IMG/VR virus record: IMGVR_UViG_3300019768_000001
Span: 1 to 55,279 of that record
Origin: a virus
Direction: 5' to 3' (one strand)
Length of the DNA stretch: 55,279 nucleotides
The number at the start of each line of letters is the position of its first letter. The stretch's first letter is position 1. The position numbers and the translations under genes were made by a program. Under the pieces are notes generated by a model that saw only the letters and a list, made by a program, of their open reading frames with translations, was not told the origin of the DNA and searched no databases. This document shows positions 8,062-55,279 of the stretch, piece after piece.

Positions 8062-8221
8062 ATGATAGATACAAGAGTGCAGAGCAAGGTGCATTTAATA
8101 CCGTTGCCGCCTGCCTTTCTATGATAGAAAACAAGATCTGATCGCTATAAAAGTGAGAAAACTTACAGATCAAAAACTACGACCATCTGAAAGAAATCAT
8201 TAGCAAAATGTGAGGTGTGGC
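8062..8221 (+). other. Short gap without a convincing gene
   Basis: A 20-codon ORF begins at 8062 in a TAAATGA overlap with the preceding stop, but nothing supports it. AGATCTGATCG and ACAGATC near 8130-8170 are partly complementary. I see no other feature. Confidence 0.3.
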
Positions 8222-8440
8222 ATGACGATTTATTTCAATACTCCATTTAACGTAGAACCTGACGACGAAGATGTGCTTTTTGTATCAACCCTACCGGGAA
8301 ACAACGAAGGTGGGCTGTATATCTGCGAATTTAAAGGACGATTTTACTGGTCTATAAGCTATTGTGGGGAAATGGATTGGCATGAGATAAACCGCGATCT
8401 TTACAGCGAAATAAAAAAACTCCAAGAACAAAATGGGTAG
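8222..8440 (+). CDS. Small hypothetical protein
   Basis: 72 residues (MTIYFNTPFNVEPDDEDVLF), acidic N-terminal half with aromatic residues (FYWSISYCGEMDWHE) and a C-terminal Lys/Gln helix. ATG 8222 has GAGGTG upstream. It precedes the PP-loop gene by a few bases. Family not recognised. Confidence 0.65.
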   Translation: MTIYFNTPFNVEPDDEDVLFVSTLPGNNEGGLYICEFKGRFYWSISYCGEMDWHEINRDLYSEIKKLQEQNG

Positions 8441-8444
8441 GAAT

Positions 8445-9146
8445 ATGAATGTATTAAGCTATGGAGCAGGAACAAACAGTGTTGCAATGCTAGTAGGTTT
8501 TAAGCAAAAGGGAATTAAGCCTGATGTTATTTTATTTGCAGACACGGGGGGGGAGAAGCCTGAAACCTACGCGCATTTAGAAATTATGCAGAAATGGTGC
8601 AAGGGTAACGGGTTTCCTGAAATATCAATTTGCTCAGAAAAACAGACGTTAGAGCAAGACTGCCTGAACAGAAACGCGTTGCCTGGTCTAGCTTACGGGT
8701 TTAAAAGCTGTAGCGAGCATTTCAAAATCAGGCCGCAAAAAAGATGGCTAAAGCAGCAAGGGATTAAGGCCGATGTGTTTTTTGTCGGTATAGATGCAGA
8801 TGAAAGCCACCGAGTCAAAGATGATGCCAAAACAGAATACCCGCTTTACGACTGGGGATGGGGTCGAAAAAAGTGTATAGAGGCAATAAATGACGAAGGC
8901 TTGCTGCTACCAGGAAAGAGCAGTTGTTTTTTCTGTCCTGCCATGAAAGCTCATGAAATTAGAGCGCTATCAGTACAGCACCCAGATTTAATGGATCGGG
9001 CAATAGCAATGGAGAAAAACGCCGACTTAACAGTTAACAAGGGGCTAGGGCGAACTTATGCGTGGTCTTCACTTATAGCTACAGATGATATGTTCCCAGA
9101 TATGTATTTAGAAACAGATATAATTTGCGGGTGCTATGACGGCTAG
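8445..9146 (+). CDS. PP-loop ATPase of the PAPS-reductase / DndC-like superfamily
   Basis: 233 residues from ATG 8445 (TAGGAAT upstream). The N-terminal PP-loop SYGAGTNSVAML (residues 4-15, SxGxxS type) is followed by VILFADTGGEKPETY, a cluster with CSEHFK, then KSSCFFCPAMKAHE and a C-terminal CGCYD. Adenylating PP-loop enzymes of this superfamily act in sulfur or nucleotide chemistry (PAPS reductase, DndC). The Cys pairs suggest a metal or Fe-S site. No Dnd or other modification partners lie beside it, so the substrate is unknown. Confidence 0.8.
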   Translation: MNVLSYGAGTNSVAMLVGFKQKGIKPDVILFADTGGEKPETYAHLEIMQKWCKGNGFPEISICSEKQTLEQDCLNRNALPGLAYGFKSCSEHFKIRPQKRWLKQQGIKADVFFVGIDADESHRVKDDAKTEYPLYDWGWGRKKCIEAINDEGLLLPGKSSCFFCPAMKAHEIRALSVQHPDLMDRAIAMEKNADLTVNKGLGRTYAWSSLIATDDMFPDMYLETDIICGCYDG

Positions 9147-9567: not shown

Positions 9568-9598
9568 ACCAAGGTCGAACAATGATAGGGGAAGCGAA

Positions 9599-17778: not shown

Positions 17779-17825
17779 ATAACACTGCAATCACAGGGCC
17801 GTTCCGCCCTGTATTTCTTTGTTAT
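17779..17825 (-). repeat. attC-like 47-bp element, copy A
   Basis: Ends ATAACA and TGTTAT, inner stem CAGGGC/GCCCTG with loop CGTTCC, and unpaired stretches between. It lies five bases after the lipoprotein stop (17829). On the minus strand it is close to copies at 35881-35927 and 48631-48677, all exactly 47 bp long. The layout resembles integron attC sites. Confidence 0.6.
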
Positions 17826-17828
17826 GTG

Positions 17829-18065
17829 TCAATACTTACAGGTTGAAATAGTGCCGTCTGCTTCAATTTTTGTTGTTATCCCACCTCGATACCTCGCCAG
17901 AAACATTATGTATTCAACTCCATCAATACATACCACCTCGTATTTACCGTCACCGCCTTGTATCGCGCGCCCAGTTTTTCCTATGTCGCTTCTTTCGCAG
18001 CCCGTCACACATAACAAAGCAATTAAAACGGACAAAGCAAACGCTCTTCGTTTCTTGTTTTTCAT
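17829..18065 (-). CDS. Small lipoprotein
   Basis: 78 residues from ATG 18065. A Lys/Arg N-terminus, a hydrophobic core (AFALSVLIALLCVTGC) and a lipobox VTGC predict signal peptidase II cleavage and a lipid-anchored mature protein of about 57 residues. The mature part contains GVEYIMFLARYRGG, a pattern I associate with small phage and mobile-element lipoproteins. Its stop is followed directly by the attC-like element 17779-17825. Confidence 0.75.
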   Translation of the reverse strand: MKNKKRRAFALSVLIALLCVTGCERSDIGKTGRAIQGGDGKYEVVCIDGVEYIMFLARYRGGITTKIEADGTISTCKY

Positions 18066-25889: not shown

Positions 25890-26210
25890 CTAGATTATGC
25901 CGCATAGCGCAGAAATGTAGAATACGACGAAAGTTGAAGATGTTGTTATGGAGTAAACAATCCGCCTTGACCAATCAAAATCTTTCATTACCGGCAACAT
26001 AGATATTGGTATCAAAGCAACAAATCCGGCCAAGCCAAATACCCATAACAAAAAGTCACCCAAGCCATAAACGGTATCATCTATACCGAAAACCAAAGCG
26101 AACAATACCAAAAGTATCAAGCCAAAAATAACAAACATGGAATACATGCCAGCAAAGTTAATCAGCTGCTCTAGCGTAGGGTATGGGATGGATAGTGTTA
26201 GAGTGTTCAT
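25890..26210 (-). CDS. Integral membrane protein, three helices
   Basis: 106 residues from ATG 26210, overlapping the upstream stop (ATGA). Hydrophobic segments near residues 22-42, 52-72 and 85-105. It could serve as a holin by topology, but nothing specific supports that. Confidence 0.62.
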   Translation of the reverse strand: MNTLTLSIPYPTLEQLINFAGMYSMFVIFGLILLVLFALVFGIDDTVYGLGDFLLWVFGLAGFVALIPISMLPVMKDFDWSRRIVYSITTSSTFVVFYISALCGII

Positions 26211-33315: not shown

Positions 33316-33378
33316 TTCAGACCACCTTTATTTTCTTGTTTATATATATCCAGAGTAGGTTTCTAGGTTTAGATAGGC

Positions 33379-33427
33379 ATAACAACTCTAAGGAAACCAA
33401 TATTAATCAGTTAACCTTAGCTGTTAT
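33379..33427. repeat. attC-like palindromic element, candidate
   Basis: ATAACA (33379-33384) and TGTTAT (33422-33427) at the ends, CTAAGG/CCTTAG inner stem with unpaired bases on one side. Similar frame to the elements at 17779, 35881 and 48631, but no small gene ends at it. Confidence 0.4.
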
Positions 33428-33439
33428 ACCTGATATATC

Positions 33440-35880: not shown

Positions 35881-35927
35881 ATAACACCTCAATAACATAG
35901 ACCTTCGGCTATGTATTTCTCTGTTAT
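35881..35927 (-). repeat. attC-like 47-bp element, copy B
   Basis: ATAACA...TGTTAT ends, inner stem CATAG/CTATG with loop ACCTTCGG, exactly 47 bp like copies at 17779 and 48631. It starts directly after the stop (35934-35932) of the 41-residue ORF and carries the ribosome site of the next gene. Confidence 0.6.
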
Positions 35928-35931
35928 ATTG

Positions 35932-36057
35932 TTAAAACTCTAACATGGTATATTTTCTGCACTCCCAGAATCCTGGCGGTGTAGTCCAGTCGGCCCAGCG
36001 TCTGCGGACAAAAACTTTAAATTTAACGCCTTTATGTGTTCTGTATACAAGCTCCAT
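35932..36057 (-). CDS. Cassette-like short ORF, 41 residues
   Basis: ATG 36057 with AGGG upstream; ends TTT TAA right before an attC-like element. MELVYRTHKGVKFKVFVRRR then WADWTTPPGFWECRKYTMLE; basic and aromatic. Flanked by attC-like elements on both sides (35881 and 36071), the layout of a gene cassette. Confidence 0.55.
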   Translation of the reverse strand: MELVYRTHKGVKFKVFVRRRWADWTTPPGFWECRKYTMLEF

Positions 36058-36070
36058 GACAACCCTAAAT

Positions 36071-36128
36071 ATAACAATGCAATCAAACAGATAACTCGTA
36101 ACCTCGTTACTCGTTATCGCCGGGTTAT
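36071..36128 (-). repeat. attC-like element between cassette-like genes
   Basis: 58 bp. ATAACA/GTTAT ends, GATAAC...GTTATC and GTAAC/GTTAC inner pairs. The stop codon of the gene at 36125 lies inside it (TAA within ATAAC). Confidence 0.55.
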
Positions 36129-36313
36129 GTTACCTTTTTAATATTTAGTGTAATTTCCACCAGTTCAGTGTTTTCTCTATCATGCTTGTCTGCTACTTTT
36201 TTTAGGTATCGCCTAGCTGGTGTAGCGCTATCAAATATAAGCATGTTTTGGTTTTCTCCATCAACTCTAATCTGTTTCGTTTTACTATCAATCAGTACAA
36301 ATGAACTTTTCAT
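36125..36313 (-). CDS. Cassette-like small protein, 62 residues
   Basis: ATG 36313. MKSSFVLIDSKTKQIRVDGE, then RYLKKVADKHDRENTELVEI; alpha/beta, basic. Lies between the attC-like elements at 36071 and 36343, so it has the position of a gene cassette. Family not recognised. Confidence 0.6.
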   Translation of the reverse strand: MKSSFVLIDSKTKQIRVDGENQNMLIFDSATPARRYLKKVADKHDRENTELVEITLNIKKVT

Positions 36314-36342: not shown

Positions 36343-36397
36343 ATAACAAGTAAAATCAAAGCTGACGCGCTACGCTTGAAGTTTATTTGGTGGTTAT
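36343..36397 (-). repeat. attC-like element, third in this array
   Basis: 55 bp. On the minus strand ATAAC, then AAATAAA, then an asymmetric loop, TTTGATTTTA and GTTAT; pairing leaves a single bulged C. It overlaps the stop codon of the gene at 36394. Confidence 0.58.
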
Positions 36398-36779: not shown

Positions 36780-37312
36780 GCTCCTTGCCTAGTCTTTTTG
36801 CAAATTACTTTAAATTAATTGTAGAAAGCGCATAACAAAGCAAGGCAATCGGATGCAAGCACCGTTGCTCGCAAAGATTATTTGCTCTATTTGATGCGCC
36901 GACTATTTACCAATCAGCACATCGAATAAAACGCCCTGCCGCAGGAATCCGGGCCAGACCATGAAAAGAGGAAAAATATCAAAACCCCTTGCCTGCTTGC
37001 ACATTGATTCGGCTCTGTGTGCTCCACTGGAGATTCCGCGCATCATGTAAATCCAATGGACGGCAGCTTCAAAGCTACACAAAGCTAATTATCGCGGACA
37101 TAATGCCAGATCCGCGCCCTGATATAGGGTATTAATGTGACTGTTAGCGCCACCCTCCCCGCTGTGACAATATTGTCGGAAAGGTGACGCTAAGGAATGC
37201 GCTCTGTCGTTCCCATAATTTTATACACAACCACAATGCAATTTATTGAACAAACACACTTTGGTTAATGTTTAAGTTATGGCAAAGCGCATTATTTAGC
37301 GCAACTAACAGT
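36780..37312. other. Gene-free stretch with hairpins
   Basis: No supported gene on either strand. It contains ATAACA near 36838 without a matching end, TTAGCG...CGCTAA flanking GGTG/CACC, and the 12-bp palindrome GACAATATTGTC. It probably belongs to the structured region that continues to 38720. Confidence 0.4.
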
Positions 37313-37622: not shown

Positions 37623-37736
37623 ACCGCGAAATAACGACACAACCAGGATGGCAATTGATCTTATATGCTAATTTTTCAGACGAGCATAATTAATGATTGA
37701 TCATTGCCGCCCTATAATGTTCGGGCTTTAAATGGG

Positions 37737-37809
37737 GCCACAAACGGGACTCGAACCTGCGACCTCTCGCTTAGGAGTCGAGCGTTCTATCCAACTGAAC
37801 TAATAGCGC
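37737..37809 (-). tRNA. Degenerate tRNA-Arg(CCT)-like sequence
   Basis: 73 nt with a D arm (GTTC/GAAC), anticodon loop CTCCTAA and T loop TTCGAGT, but the acceptor pairs in only about four of seven positions and the T stem has a mismatch. A decayed or unusual phage tRNA. Confidence 0.5.
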
Positions 37810-37815
37810 TTAAGA

Positions 37816-37888
37816 GCTGAAGGCCGGATTCGAACCGACGCAATACCAATGCGAACAAAGGCGGGTTTTCCAGTTTCCCCACTTCAGC
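37816..37888 (-). tRNA. tRNA-like sequence without an anticodon arm
   Basis: Acceptor GCTGAAG/CTTCAGC pairs perfectly (7 bp); D arm with CTGG; T arm GTCGG-TTCGAAT-CCGGC. Between them, CGCA-TTGGTAT-TGCG looks like a class-II variable arm, and a normal anticodon stem is missing. Could be a deletion derivative of a Leu/Ser tRNA or a tRNA mimic. Confidence 0.5.
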
Positions 37889-45165: not shown

Positions 45166-45689
45166 GTGACGTTACAAATCTTGCTGACACGGTAGCACCA
45201 AAAAGCGATCAACTTAATGCTGACGACCTGCTAACAGGGCCAATTACTGTAACCGTTATCGATGTTAAGCGCGGCCCTAAAGATCAGCCTGTCTGGATCG
45301 TGATAGATGGCGGTCGACAGCCATACAAGCCGTGCAAGTCAATGCGTCGCGTAATGATCCAAGCTTGGGGGGCTAATGGTAAGGACTGGGTAGGTCGATC
45401 TATGACCTTGTTCTGTGATCCTAGTGTTAAGTTTGGCGGCGTGGCTCTTGGAGGTATTCGCATCAGTCACATGAGCCATATTACCGGAACGCTTGATATG
45501 ATGCTGACAGTAACAAGAGGCCGTAAAAATCAGTTCAAAGTTCACCCGTTGAAAACTGTTGATTATTCAAAACTGATAGCAGGTTATTCAGCGATGAACC
45601 AAGAAGATAGAAATAAAGCGTGGGCAACATACACGCCAGATCAGCAGATGGCTATCAGTAACGCAATGAACAGTGGAGTAAGCAATTAA
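45162..45689 (+). CDS. Recombination-operon protein with SSB-like C-terminal motif
   Basis: 175 residues. A beta-rich N-terminal two-thirds (ITVTVIDVKRGPKDQPVWIV) could be OB-like. The C-terminal stretch YSAMNQEDRNKAWATYTPDQ resembles the SSB segment YMAMTREQQTQMWPSYTDAQ. Located between exonuclease and SSB genes. I infer a single-strand annealing or DNA-binding role; not proven. Confidence 0.62.
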   Translation: MSDVTNLADTVAPKSDQLNADDLLTGPITVTVIDVKRGPKDQPVWIVIDGGRQPYKPCKSMRRVMIQAWGANGKDWVGRSMTLFCDPSVKFGGVALGGIRISHMSHITGTLDMMLTVTRGRKNQFKVHPLKTVDYSKLIAGYSAMNQEDRNKAWATYTPDQQMAISNAMNSGVSN

Positions 45690-45722
45690 TGTCTCGCGGA
45701 ATAAATAAAGTAATTATTGCCG

Positions 45723-45728
45723 TATAAT
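45723..45728 (+). promoter_or_regulatory. Promoter -10 TATAAT of the HNH gene
   Basis: TGCCGTATAATCG in the gap before ATG 45770. It suggests that the HNH gene is transcribed on its own, as expected for a mobile insertion. Confidence 0.5.
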
Positions 45729-45769
45729 CGTTTTTTCGTTACTATATTTAACATATAGAAGGGGCTTAT

Positions 45770-46273
45770 ATGGATGAATATGATTTATATAACAACGGAA
45801 AAAGCATACCAGAGGTAAGCGATGAGACAGGGATACCAAGATCAACACTGAGATTCAGGTTTAAAAAAGCAGGAATATTAAGGTCTAGGGCTGATGGCAT
45901 TAAAAACGCATCAAAAAACGGTCGATTAGGTTCAGGTCTTAGAGGTAAGAAAAGGGTTTTCACAGAAGAGTGGAAGAATAATATTTCAAAAGGAAAAACC
46001 GGAAAGGGGCTTGGTGTATCTGTAAAGCCTAGTGGATATATAGAGATAACGATGGGAGAAAACAAGGGTAGGTTGGAGCATGTTGTAATAATGGAGTTGA
46101 TAATAGGAAGAAGGCTTGCGTCAAACGAGTGCGTTCATCATAAAGATGAAAACAGGGCCAACAACGACCCTGAAAACCTTCAGTTAATGACAAGAAGCGA
46201 GCATGCATCTTTGCATGCTAAGCAAAATATAAGCAAAAGAAATAGAGATAAGAGAGGTCGTCTTTGTGGCTAA
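45770..46273 (+). CDS. HNH homing endonuclease
   Basis: 167 residues. The N-terminus SIPEVSDETGIPRSTLRFRF is an HTH-type (NUMOD-like) module. The C-terminus has LEHVVIMELIIGRRLASNEC, then VHHKDENRANNDPENL and HASLHAKQN, an HNH active site. It overlaps the SSB start and interrupts the recombination operon. Confidence 0.85.
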   Translation: MDEYDLYNNGKSIPEVSDETGIPRSTLRFRFKKAGILRSRADGIKNASKNGRLGSGLRGKKRVFTEEWKNNISKGKTGKGLGVSVKPSGYIEITMGENKGRLEHVVIMELIIGRRLASNECVHHKDENRANNDPENLQLMTRSEHASLHAKQNISKRNRDKRGRLCG

Positions 46274-46850
46274 CGATTTAAATCAGTGTCAATTTATTGG
46301 ACGTTTAGGGAAAGACCCTGAAACAAAATTTCTTCCAAACGGTGGGCAGGTTACTAACATATCGATAGCCTGCGGAAGCTCTTGGACTGACAAATCGTCT
46401 GGCCAGAAGCAAGAGAAAACCGATTGGATACCAGTGGTTTTTTTTGGAAAACTTGCAGAAATAGCAGGCCAGTACTTAACGAAGGGGTCAAAAATATTTG
46501 TATCCGGTAATTTTAAAACACGCAAATGGCAGGATCAATCTGGCCAGGATCGCTACACAACAGAGATCGTTGTCGATGGCTTTGGCGGTGTAATGCAGAT
46601 GTTGGATAGCAAGAGTGACGGGCAAGGCGGCGGGCAAAATAATGCTCCACCACAACAGGCACCAGCACCAGTACCGGCACCAACGCCACAAAAAGACTAT
46701 GCAGCTGAATACATGGCTATGACCCGCGAACAGCAAACACAGATGTGGCCGAGCTATACCGATGCACAGCGCCAATTGATCACCGACGCTGTAATGTCTC
46801 AGAAACAACCTGAAAGCAATCTGCCTCAGCCAGACGACATACCTTTTTAG
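46266..46850 (+). CDS. ssb: Single-stranded DNA-binding protein
   Basis: 194 residues from GTG 46266. OB fold with FIGRLGKDPETKFLPNGGQV and KTDWIPVVFFGKLAEIAGQY, a Pro/Gln-rich linker, a segment YMAMTREQQTQMWPSYTDAQ that is shared with the gene at 45162, and the acidic tip DDIPF that binds host replication and repair partners. DDIPF is followed immediately by TAG, so TAG ends translation here. Confidence 0.92.
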   Translation: MANDLNQCQFIGRLGKDPETKFLPNGGQVTNISIACGSSWTDKSSGQKQEKTDWIPVVFFGKLAEIAGQYLTKGSKIFVSGNFKTRKWQDQSGQDRYTTEIVVDGFGGVMQMLDSKSDGQGGGQNNAPPQQAPAPVPAPTPQKDYAAEYMAMTREQQTQMWPSYTDAQRQLITDAVMSQKQPESNLPQPDDIPF

Positions 46851-47657: not shown

Positions 47658-47870
47658 ATGAGCAAGATAGCAAGCGTTTACGATAAGAATTCAAAGTCAG
47701 TGATTTTAGATATGCGCCATCCGAACAAAGATGTGCCTAGACCTGAAATTGTGATCGACACAGAAACAGAGAAGTACGCCGTTCCGGGCGGGAAGACATT
47801 TGAGCTGCTTCGAGATGCGCGTGTTGTAGCAACTGAGATGTTTAGTAAGGCGGGTTTTGTTTGCCAGTAA
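47658..47870 (+). CDS. Hypothetical protein, 70 residues
   Basis: ATG 47658 with AAGGGGATAAC upstream. MSKIASVYDKNSKSVILDMR; compact and basic. Its stop codon (TAA 47868-47870) lies inside an attC-like element, so it may be the first cassette of the array. Confidence 0.6.
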   Translation: MSKIASVYDKNSKSVILDMRHPNKDVPRPEIVIDTETEKYAVPGGKTFELLRDARVVATEMFSKAGFVCQ

Positions 47871-47922
47871 CCATATAAATAAACGGTGCAGCGCAGCAAG
47901 TCCGATTTAATTTGCTTGTTAT
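47868..47922 (+). repeat. attC-like element, array 2 site 1
   Basis: TAAC...GTTAT ends, inner AAAT-AAA-CGG paired with CCG-ATTT-AATTT with two bulged T, loop GCGCAG. It begins at the stop of the gene 47658-47870. Confidence 0.58.
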
Positions 47923-47946
47923 GCTGCGAATAGATAGGGGGGGAAT

Positions 47947-48120
47947 ATGGGCGTTAGAATGAAAAAGACAGATCGAGAATGGCACGAGTACCCATTAGGG
48001 ACTAAAGCTCACGCCGTTATGGGTGGTTATTGGGAAAGAGTTAAGGGTGGCTGGAAATGGTGTACAGGTTCTACCTTTCCTACTCCCGGTGCTGACTGGC
48101 GAGTAATAGAATTACCATAG
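47947..48120 (+). CDS. Cassette-like small protein, 57 residues
   Basis: ATG 47947, GGGGGAAT upstream. MGVRMKKTDREWHEYPLGTK then WKWCTGSTFPTPGADWRVIE; many Trp. Lies between attC-like elements 47868-47922 and 48125-48180. Family not recognised. Confidence 0.58.
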   Translation: MGVRMKKTDREWHEYPLGTKAHAVMGGYWERVKGGWKWCTGSTFPTPGADWRVIELP

Positions 48121-48124
48121 CAAC

Positions 48125-48180
48125 ATAACCCCTTAAACAAACGCAGAGCGTAGCGATGTAGCTTTGCTTTAAATTGTTAT
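48125..48180 (+). repeat. attC-like element, array 2 site 2
   Basis: ATAAC/GTTAT ends. TTAAACAAA pairs with TTTGCTTTAA, leaving one bulged base. The loop is GC-rich. It starts a few bases after the stop of the preceding gene (48120). Confidence 0.58.
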
Positions 48181-48194
48181 ATTACGGAGACATT

Positions 48195-48629
48195 ATGGAT
48201 TACTTAAAACTATTGCAAGAAAGCTACAGAGAAACAGCAGAGAATAGGGATGACCCAACTTTAGAAAAACTAGAGTTCTTGGCTGAGGGTATTTTCGGAT
48301 TCACGACATACGAGAATGTGGTTTCTTCTACGATGGCGCAAAAGGCACTAGAAGTATGCAAGGCGATAAGTGACAAAAAGACATTTGATTACATTGCCAG
48401 TGAAGAGGGAAATCTTTGGTATCTGGTAATGGTTAATATGCCGTTTTTTGAAAACAGGCTTAATTGGGGTACTTCTATTCGTGGTGCTTGGTGGGATCTG
48501 TGGGGCAATAAAGAATTCACCATTGAGAGTTGCGAACTGTTTGGCGGTGAACAGATACTAGAGCTTAAATTGAATGACAGTGAATGGGTTAAGTTTATAG
48601 AAGCTATGATTAAGTTCGCGGAAGAGTAA
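48195..48629 (+). CDS. Cassette-like protein, 144 residues
   Basis: ATG 48195 with ACGGAGACATT upstream. The N-terminal part is acidic and helical (MDYLKLLQESYRETAENRDD); the C-terminal part has WGTSIRGAWWDLWGNKEFTI, a Trp-rich alpha/beta region. Flanked by attC-like elements at 48125 and 48631, typical integron-cassette gene size. Function unknown. Confidence 0.62.
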   Translation: MDYLKLLQESYRETAENRDDPTLEKLEFLAEGIFGFTTYENVVSSTMAQKALEVCKAISDKKTFDYIASEEGNLWYLVMVNMPFFENRLNWGTSIRGAWWDLWGNKEFTIESCELFGGEQILELKLNDSEWVKFIEAMIKFAEE

Positions 48630-48630
48630 T

Positions 48631-48677
48631 ATAACAAAGAAATACAGGGCGGAACGTCCCTGTTATTGATGTGTTAT
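48631..48677 (+). repeat. attC-like 47-bp element, array 2 site 3 (copy C)
   Basis: ATAACA...TGTTAT ends, inner CAGGG/CCCTG stem with loop CGGAACGT. Its reverse complement matches 17779-17825 almost base for base and 35881-35927 in frame and length. It starts right after the gene's stop (48629). Confidence 0.62.
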
Positions 48678-48740
48678 GCCAAAGTCTAATACCGCACCGA
48701 CTAAGTAAGGCGCACAATAAGAAAAAACGGAGGGTCGAAC

Positions 48741-54023: not shown

Positions 54024-55279
54024 TAGGCCACCTGCTGCCTTACGTTGAATCCTGCGCCATTAAACGCCTCTGTAATCGCCTCATGAACCTCATCTTGTCG
54101 GTCAATCATGCGATCAAATCCAGCGGTCACAACTGAGTTAACCCCCATAACCGCATTCACAATACTACTAACGTCTATTGTAACAGGCTGACGGAATAAA
54201 TCCGCAGGGTTCATACCTGAGTTAAGCGCGTTTACAGCAGATCCACCCATGTTTGATGTAGCCATCGGATTTAAAACCGCCTCTTGACCATGAACTATTC
54301 CCCGAACCTCTCCGATACTACCTCCGGTTAGTCCGCCTGAATTAAACCCTGGAAGACCTAATACTGCCGCTATCTCGGCGGGAGTCAAATCAACACCGCT
54401 GGCTTGAGCTGACGCAGTTTCTAGCGGCTGATTGAATGCCCCGGTATCAATAACGCCGGTAGATCCAGACGGGCCAGTAAACGTAGTTGCTACCCCTGTG
54501 CTGCTACCTACCTGACTAATAATTGAACCGCCAGAAGGAACGCTTGCCGCCCCAGCTTGAGATGCGGGAAGTTGAGACAGAGAGTTAGACAGTGCAAGGA
54601 GCGCATCAGCAACGGACATTACAGAATTATCGATTCCTAGTAGCGCGTCAAGCTGTGCCTGATTTGCAGAAATGGCATTATCACGCTCTTCTATCAGCAG
54701 TTCAATTTGCCGGTCTGCGGCCTCATTTGCCTCTGACCTGCCGTCTTCCAGCTCTAGCAGCGTTTTTTCTTCAACAGATAGTTGCTGCCCGGCTTTTTGC
54801 TCTAATGCCTTAATCTGGTTTGCGGCCACGGCCTGAGCAAAAGCGAAATCTTCCTGCGTTCTAAATTGATCTTCGGAGATATTGGTTAGATCTCCAAGCA
54901 ATGATTCCAGTTCATCACTACCTGGAAGCGTACTACCTGCGATAATAGCCCCAATCCTTGAGCTGGCCGCTTGCTGTCTAGCTATATCTATTTCTAGCGA
55001 TGACGCGCGAACAGCCGAGGCGGAAGATTTAAGTAGTCGCTGGATGTCCTTTAGGTTTGATATCGTGCTTTTTGCCGCTTCTTTTCGCTGGTCAGAAAGA
55101 TCATCTTCATCTTCCTGCGTGCTTCTAATCGCGTCAATCTGATCTTGATATCTATCAGTCAATCTATCCGCTTCAGCAGCAACGGCTTTCTCTGCGTCAG
55201 ATTTAGCCCTGTCAACTTTAGCCTCGAAATCAAATAATTCAGCGGCGGTTTCTTTCACTGATTCAGCGATGGTTTCAAC
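54023..55279 (-). CDS. Tape measure protein, C-terminal part
   Basis: Continuation of the gene starting at 3774: 378 codons from 55156 to TAA 54025-54023. 55157-55279 repeats the reading at 1-123. Contains a coiled coil (ADRQIELLIEERDNAISANQ) and a Gly-rich C-terminal domain with GGSIGEVRGIVHGQEAVLNP, a motif common at the end of tape measure proteins (GGLIRGPGTGTSDSIPA-like). The C-terminus ends GAGFNVRQQVA. Confidence 0.92.
   Translation of the reverse strand, partial: VETIAESVKETAAELFDFEAKVDRAKSDAEKAVAAEADRLTDRYQDQIDAIRSTQEDEDDLSDQRKEAAKSTISNLKDIQRLLKSSASAVRASSLEIDIARQQAASSRIGAIIAGSTLPGSDELESLLGDLTNISEDQFRTQEDFAFAQAVAANQIKALEQKAGQQLSVEEKTLLELEDGRSEANEAADRQIELLIEERDNAISANQAQLDALLGIDNSVMSVADALLALSNSLSQLPASQAGAASVPSGGSIISQVGSSTGVATTFTGPSGSTGVIDTGAFNQPLETASAQASGVDLTPAEIAAVLGLPGFNSGGLTGGSIGEVRGIVHGQEAVLNPMATSNMGGSAVNALNSGMNPADLFRQPVTIDVSSIVNAVMGVNSVVTAGFDRMIDRQDEVHEAITEAFNGAGFNVRQQVA
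55157..55279. repeat. Terminal direct repeat, right copy
   Basis: Identical to 1-123 (see that entry). It marks the point where the linear contig closes. Confidence 0.93.

Follow-up and report, generated by a model that had tools for sequence, protein, structure and literature searches.

The 55,279-nt stretch of DNA analysed here (the window) is the complete record of a marine phage, with an identical 123-bp repeat at both ends. From sequence comparison we favor the view that it carries attC-type sites separating small cassette genes in a phage that has no integrase of its own, the cassettes being probably shuffled by a host integron integrase (IntI). The window has at least seven of these sites, three at 48 kb, three at 36 kb and one at 17.8 kb, and every one of the seven starts no more than 5 nt from a stop codon. 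Two of their properties appear to be new: their polarity is inverted with respect to the genes, and they come in two types that follow one another in a set order.

The array at 48 kb lies on the plus strand. Its first site, e1 (47868-47922), starts at the TAA that ends a 70-aa gene, has the ends TAACC..CTTGTTA in gene sense and contains two bulges, both on the 3' arm. Then come a 57-aa gene (47947-48120) and, 5 nt past its TAG stop, e2 (48125-48180), in which the bulge is also on the 3' arm in gene sense; for both sites, the attC top strand is the minus strand. The last site, e3 (48631-48677), starts 2 nt past the TAA of a 144-aa gene (48195-48629). Ends of the TAAC/GTTA type and an inner stem with a bulge are common to all three. 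A sequence-only reading of this DNA had located them correctly, each at or near the stop of a small gene, but had taken the three as the whole set and as elements of one kind, whereas further sites lie at 36.4-35.9 kb and 17.8 kb, and e3 belongs to a second type (type II) distinct from that of e1 and e2 (type I). It had also placed the two enclosed genes in no known family. We found none for the 57-aa protein, but the 144-aa protein is phrog_18399 (function unknown, E=9.5e-39), with relatives in 51 phage records, Vibrio phages for the most part.

When the elements were used as queries against the window, copies of e3 came up at 17825-17779 (91%) and at 35930-35881 (84%), the latter with compensatory changes in the stem (CAGGGCGGAACGTCCCTG vs CATAGCCGAAGGTCTATG). 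This second copy closes an array on the minus strand (36.4-35.9 kb) that repeats the layout of the one at 48 kb: a gene, site A (36343-36397, type I), a 62-aa gene (36125-36313, with a weak match to phrog_470, E=0.009), site B (36071-36128, type I), a 41-aa gene (35932-36057) for which no family match was found, and site C (35881-35927, type II). The copy at 17.8 kb, S17 (17779-17825, minus strand), is a solitary type II site downstream of an 81-aa lipoprotein-like gene (17829-18065, minus strand; phrog_7772, E=8e-9).

When sequences are folded one by one and compared with shuffles, only e3 stands beyond chance (z=-3.8, versus -0.8 for e2 and 0.04 for e1), and it is the comparison with other sites, rather than folding alone, that sets all three apart from chance. 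That e1 and e2 are not distinguished from shuffles by folding, and that the window holds 15 ATAAC..GTTAT pairs spaced by 40-140 nt, is what one would expect if these were fortuitous palindromes in an AT-rich phage. Yet we find this explanation hardly credible, given that the sites recur in many phage contigs and given the results of two scans. The first relied on geometry, with sequence fixed only at the outer TAAC/GTTA, followed by unpaired spacers, a stem, one bulge and a stem. Across the 55 kb, its best matches were mostly the sites described above, and at a threshold of 24 three Markov-shuffled windows gave 0, 1 and 0 matches, while eight were among the matches listed for the real window. 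The second used a covariance model (R1) built, with no phage input, from 23 attC sites of 20 IntI-adjacent regions in the family of Thalassotalea eurytherma, these sites being taken by geometry on the array strand. R1 recovered 71 integron sites in a control, all on the array strand, although some of these regions had also supplied training sites. In the window, its best match was e2 (48123-48182 on the minus strand, 28.6 bits, E=1.5e-5), followed by S17 (24.7 bits, E=2e-4, on the minus strand, that is, in gene sense). Sites A and B scored 15.2 bits each (E=0.12) on the plus strand, their genes being on the minus strand; e3 gave E=1.3, and e1 was missed at E<=5. In other phages, sites were found with E as low as 9e-9. 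The attC identity proposed in the sequence-only reading, which named the lack of any covariance-model match as evidence against itself, is supported by a model of bacterial attC sites.

Two weaker signals were noted in passing. A possible degenerate type I site lies upstream of the 36-kb array (36830-36883, minus strand; 12.6 bits with R1 on the plus strand, E=0.72), and a palindrome, ATAACA..GTTATG (33377-33429), is found upstream of an HNH-like gene on the minus strand (10.9 bits, E=2.2).

The anatomy of the sites is also that of attC: pairing R''/R' boxes (RYYYAAC/GTTRRRY), frequently one position off consensus (ATAAC/GTTAT), unpaired central spacers, an L''/L' stem and a variable loop. On the antisense strand, type I sites resemble textbook attC, as can be seen in e1 (GCATAACAAGC-AAAT-T-AAA-T-CGG). 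With two attC sites or more in close proximity and no neighboring integrase, the 48-kb and 36-kb arrays both qualify as CALINs. The window does not amount to a complete integron, with intI, attI and Pc, since it encodes no tyrosine recombinase: no PF00589 match is present in the record, as the earlier reading had anticipated, and none of the nine phage records inspected (the window and eight related ones) yielded a tyrosine recombinase.

Alternatively, the sites could act as RNA elements: hairpins between cistrons at which phage transcripts are terminated, processed or stabilized, which are moved together with neighboring genes by homologous recombination and which resemble attC by convergence. 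Such elements would naturally lie between stop and start codons and be conserved in the sense of transcription, as these sites are, and the covariation seen in type II (both partners differ in 5 of 17 pairs across four sequences) suits RNA as well as DNA. But no site is followed by a run of T, as would be the case in Rho-independent terminators (a G+C-rich hairpin plus a T run), and Rfam and tRNA scans found nothing at the sites. (Elsewhere, Rfam gave two neighboring tRNA matches, at 37736-37809 and 37815-37888 on the minus strand, with 38.0 and 35.7 bits; ARAGORN calls neither.) Moreover, the outer boxes and unpaired spacers agree with attC, a genuine attC adjoins a site of the phage type in Thalassotalea, and sites with the same layout in phage PH101 recombine with IntI1 (PMC9892861). 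We therefore hold the RNA explanation to be improbable and retain attC-type sites as the preferred reading.

The two types of site differ in gene sense by their ends, TAACC..TTGTTA in type I and TAACA..GTGTTA in type II, the latter having a GGGCG..CGTCCC stem with a bulged T, and variants in contigs G004 and G008. Their arrangement is regular: type I sites lead and a single type II site closes the array. In every array of at least two sites that holds a type II site (both arrays of the window, one in the sister phage G001, three in G002, and those in G004 and G008), type II comes last in gene sense, an order expected about once in 5,000 by random placement, bearing in mind that the site classes were defined after looking. 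Solitary type II sites are found at 17.8 kb in the window and at 28.7 kb in G002, and the minus-strand arrays of G003 and G008 contain no clear type II. The last site in gene sense is the first one in the canonical attC direction, where attI stands.

G001 is the only near and syntenic relative of the window, judging from the endolysin and portal genes; another record is a fragment identical to the window. Homology between the two phages breaks at sites in three places, resuming at 48679, 35876 and 17784; flanking gene content differs there, and these breaks fall on the right-hand box. Where the window has the gene before S17, G001 has an unrelated gene of 103 aa, and it also has an I-I-II array of its own between its SSB gene and a 48-aa gene. 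At site C, the window and G001 (55205-55253) share 49 identical nt, with different, unrelated genes on both sides. Differing content around an identical site implies that blocks have been gained, lost or exchanged, either site-specifically or by homologous recombination, the latter being a means by which the RNA elements considered above could also come to have identical sites between different genes, through short repeats. The sequence-only reading held that blocks conserved in place in related phages would argue against it; in the sister phage they are not kept, which supports mobile rather than fixed blocks. In the sister and related phages compared, no unit of gene plus attC was seen to move whole. 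In one pair (G002 at 26024 and G003 at 9580) the site is 100% identical and the downstream flank 88%, with the upstream flank at background level, a pattern that suits joint inheritance of site and downstream flank, while in most pairs neither flank is kept. Beside the cassette locus, 944 bp covering the HNH and SSB genes (45684-46627, versus 1806-863 in G001) are 99.5% identical, when most of the shared backbone is at 72-96%, which likely reflects a recent exchange.

In integrons, the gene-sense strand of attC has its extrahelical base on the 5' arm, and it is the antisense, or bottom, strand that recombines. In all seven sites of the window, the gene-sense strand has the extrahelical bases on its 3' arm instead, and the usual position on the 5' arm is obtained only by taking the antisense strand as top. 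The sequence-only reading was right in that the features of the hairpins match folded attC, but overlooked this orientation. Geometry calls on host integron arrays were canonical in 68 of 68 cases. Counting sites relative to genes, the ratio of canonical to inverted was 83:4 in host integrons and 2:22 in phages (Fisher p=4e-17), although sites within one phage are related and not independent, so that the p-values for polarity (about 1e-15) overstate the evidence. Both canonical calls in phages came from an automatic procedure misled by a longer, antisense or convergent ORF of the opposite strand. The phage sites in this count do not, as a rule, follow a gene in the same sense, as attC does in a cassette. 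The strand preferred by R1 at E<=0.05 tells the same story, with 14 inverted to 1 canonical in phages and 0 to 71 in integrons. The exception is S17, at which R1 favors the gene-sense strand, apparently due to its TAACAA start, yet the bulge is on the inverted arm; an inverted polarity is therefore putative for type II.

These data bear on another scenario, in which the phages passively picked up ordinary gene-then-attC cassettes from host integrons and the apparent inversion is peculiar to a few related lineages or to AT-rich stems. Several observations would fit it: genes end right at the sites, as they do in integron cassettes, R1 takes S17 on the gene-sense strand, the breaks with G001 fall on the right-hand box at three loci, and in Tetrasphaera phage TJE1 the attC sites at 1015 and 1465 are canonical. 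For type II in particular, the position of these breaks and the strand chosen by R1 at S17 suit a gene-then-site unit better than an inverted one. Still, we consider passive pickup unlikely, because bulges are inverted in the seven window sites and in all other phage arrays examined except TJE1, because the strand preference of R1 is opposite in phages and integrons, and because 399 genomes of the host family contain almost no type I sites. The reading of attC-type sites in an integrase-free phage, probably served by a host IntI, accordingly remains our choice.

Pattern scans of viral contigs found such sites in no fewer than six additional phage contigs (G002, G003, G004, G005, G007 and G008), and likely in a seventh (G006). 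Several of these related contigs have long arrays of small genes, one of which, in G002, is directly before a NinG gene. The similarity of e1 to sites in other phage contigs is about 85-88%. Among isolated phages, BLASTN found no match to sites of the e1 or G003 type; the PH101 site occurred in PH101 alone, and attC models gave no usable match in P12002L or in the first 20 kb of MW202573. G003 (8193-8315) and G002 (8439-8559) also contain long attC-like sites with a start codon in the loop, so that the next gene begins inside the hairpin and takes its N-terminus (..TVSNPVEAVV..) from the 3' half.

In bacteria, a strict pattern searched against about 85,000 species genomes gave one chromosome with a clear match, a second match being on a phage-like MAG contig. 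The chromosomal site, in Thalassotalea eurytherma, is 96.5% identical to a G004 site over 57 nt and 88% identical to e1. It adjoins a textbook attC truncated where the contig ends, and is flanked on the other side by a phage-like leader and a short ORF that begins like a G003 cassette; the first 540 nt of this contig (contig 19) comprise the phage-type site, a truncated ORF, the ordinary attC and a 97-aa gene. The same genome encodes a true IntI (470 bits) at the edge of a different contig, so that integrase and site are at most a putative single array. IntI was found in 103 of 150 genomes of this family, which makes a plausible host family. As for the 58 genome pattern matches, nearly all were rejected as products of chance in AT-rich DNA; the ones that appear genuine are in Thalassotalea, on the phage-like contig of a MAG and in a Nitrospirae MAG, this last site being canonical relative to its own gene.

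Should the preferred reading hold, then on the simplest account the IntI of the host would bind a folded single strand of phage DNA during infection, and would swap cassettes among phage arrays and occasionally with host integrons, cassette genes being presumably read from phage promoters. Because the extrahelical bases are on the other arm, they would direct recombination of the gene-sense strand instead of the antisense one, a site and its downstream gene would form the mobile unit, and type II would stand at the head, as attI does. A more elaborate version, which we advance only tentatively and regard as rather doubtful, is that of an integrase-free phage platform in which type II serves as head, a folded stand-in for attI, type I serves as attC, and host IntI acts on the gene-sense strand, perhaps exposed by transcription; the phages would thereby keep a private cassette pool, silent when parked in host integrons.

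Until now, attC sites in phages have been scattered finds. The reverse polarity, the order of the two types and the match on a bacterial chromosome suggest that some marine phages keep a cassette pool of their own, borrowing the integron enzyme of the host. If true, this would give phages a concrete way of exchanging genes with one another and with chromosomal integrons, would predict the gene-sense strand as the recombining one, and would bear on the rapid variation of strings of tiny unknown genes in phages. Neither a consistent inversion of phage attC, nor the two-type order, nor a phage-type unit beside a chromosomal attC was found in the literature searched, which comprised no preprints and few subscription journals; novelty is provisional for this reason.

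Arrays of attC sites in phages were already known (PMC9892861). Among the closest cases is PH101 (or H101), a virulent marine phage of Pseudoalteromonas with a CALIN at 75919-77986 of NC_029094, whose sites are substrates of IntI1, the bottom strand more so than the top (Qi et al. 2023, PMC9892861). As in the window, its attC array is integrase-free and, by our analysis, inverted, with genes on the minus strand and the attC top strand opposite to them, on the plus strand; the authors call the orientation of the array typical, without mention of inversion (PMC9892861). PH101 differs in that its sites are longer and GC-richer, with GCGTTA-type boxes, and in that no terminal type II was found. 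Tetrasphaera phage TJE1 also has a CALIN, a phage attC array without integrase (PMC9892861), but its sites at 1015 and 1465 run in gene sense, unlike those of the window. The integrons of the Thalassotalea eurytherma family share with the phage sites the TAACAA..L''..GTTA layout, an extrahelical base, a variable loop and small genes, but they have intI, their attC sense is that of the genes and their loops are longer. Finally, by its head position in the canonical attC direction, type II recalls the attI and attG docking sites; type II sites are folded hairpins, whereas attI is recognized as double-stranded DNA (PMC11023631), and a docking function of type II would be putative.
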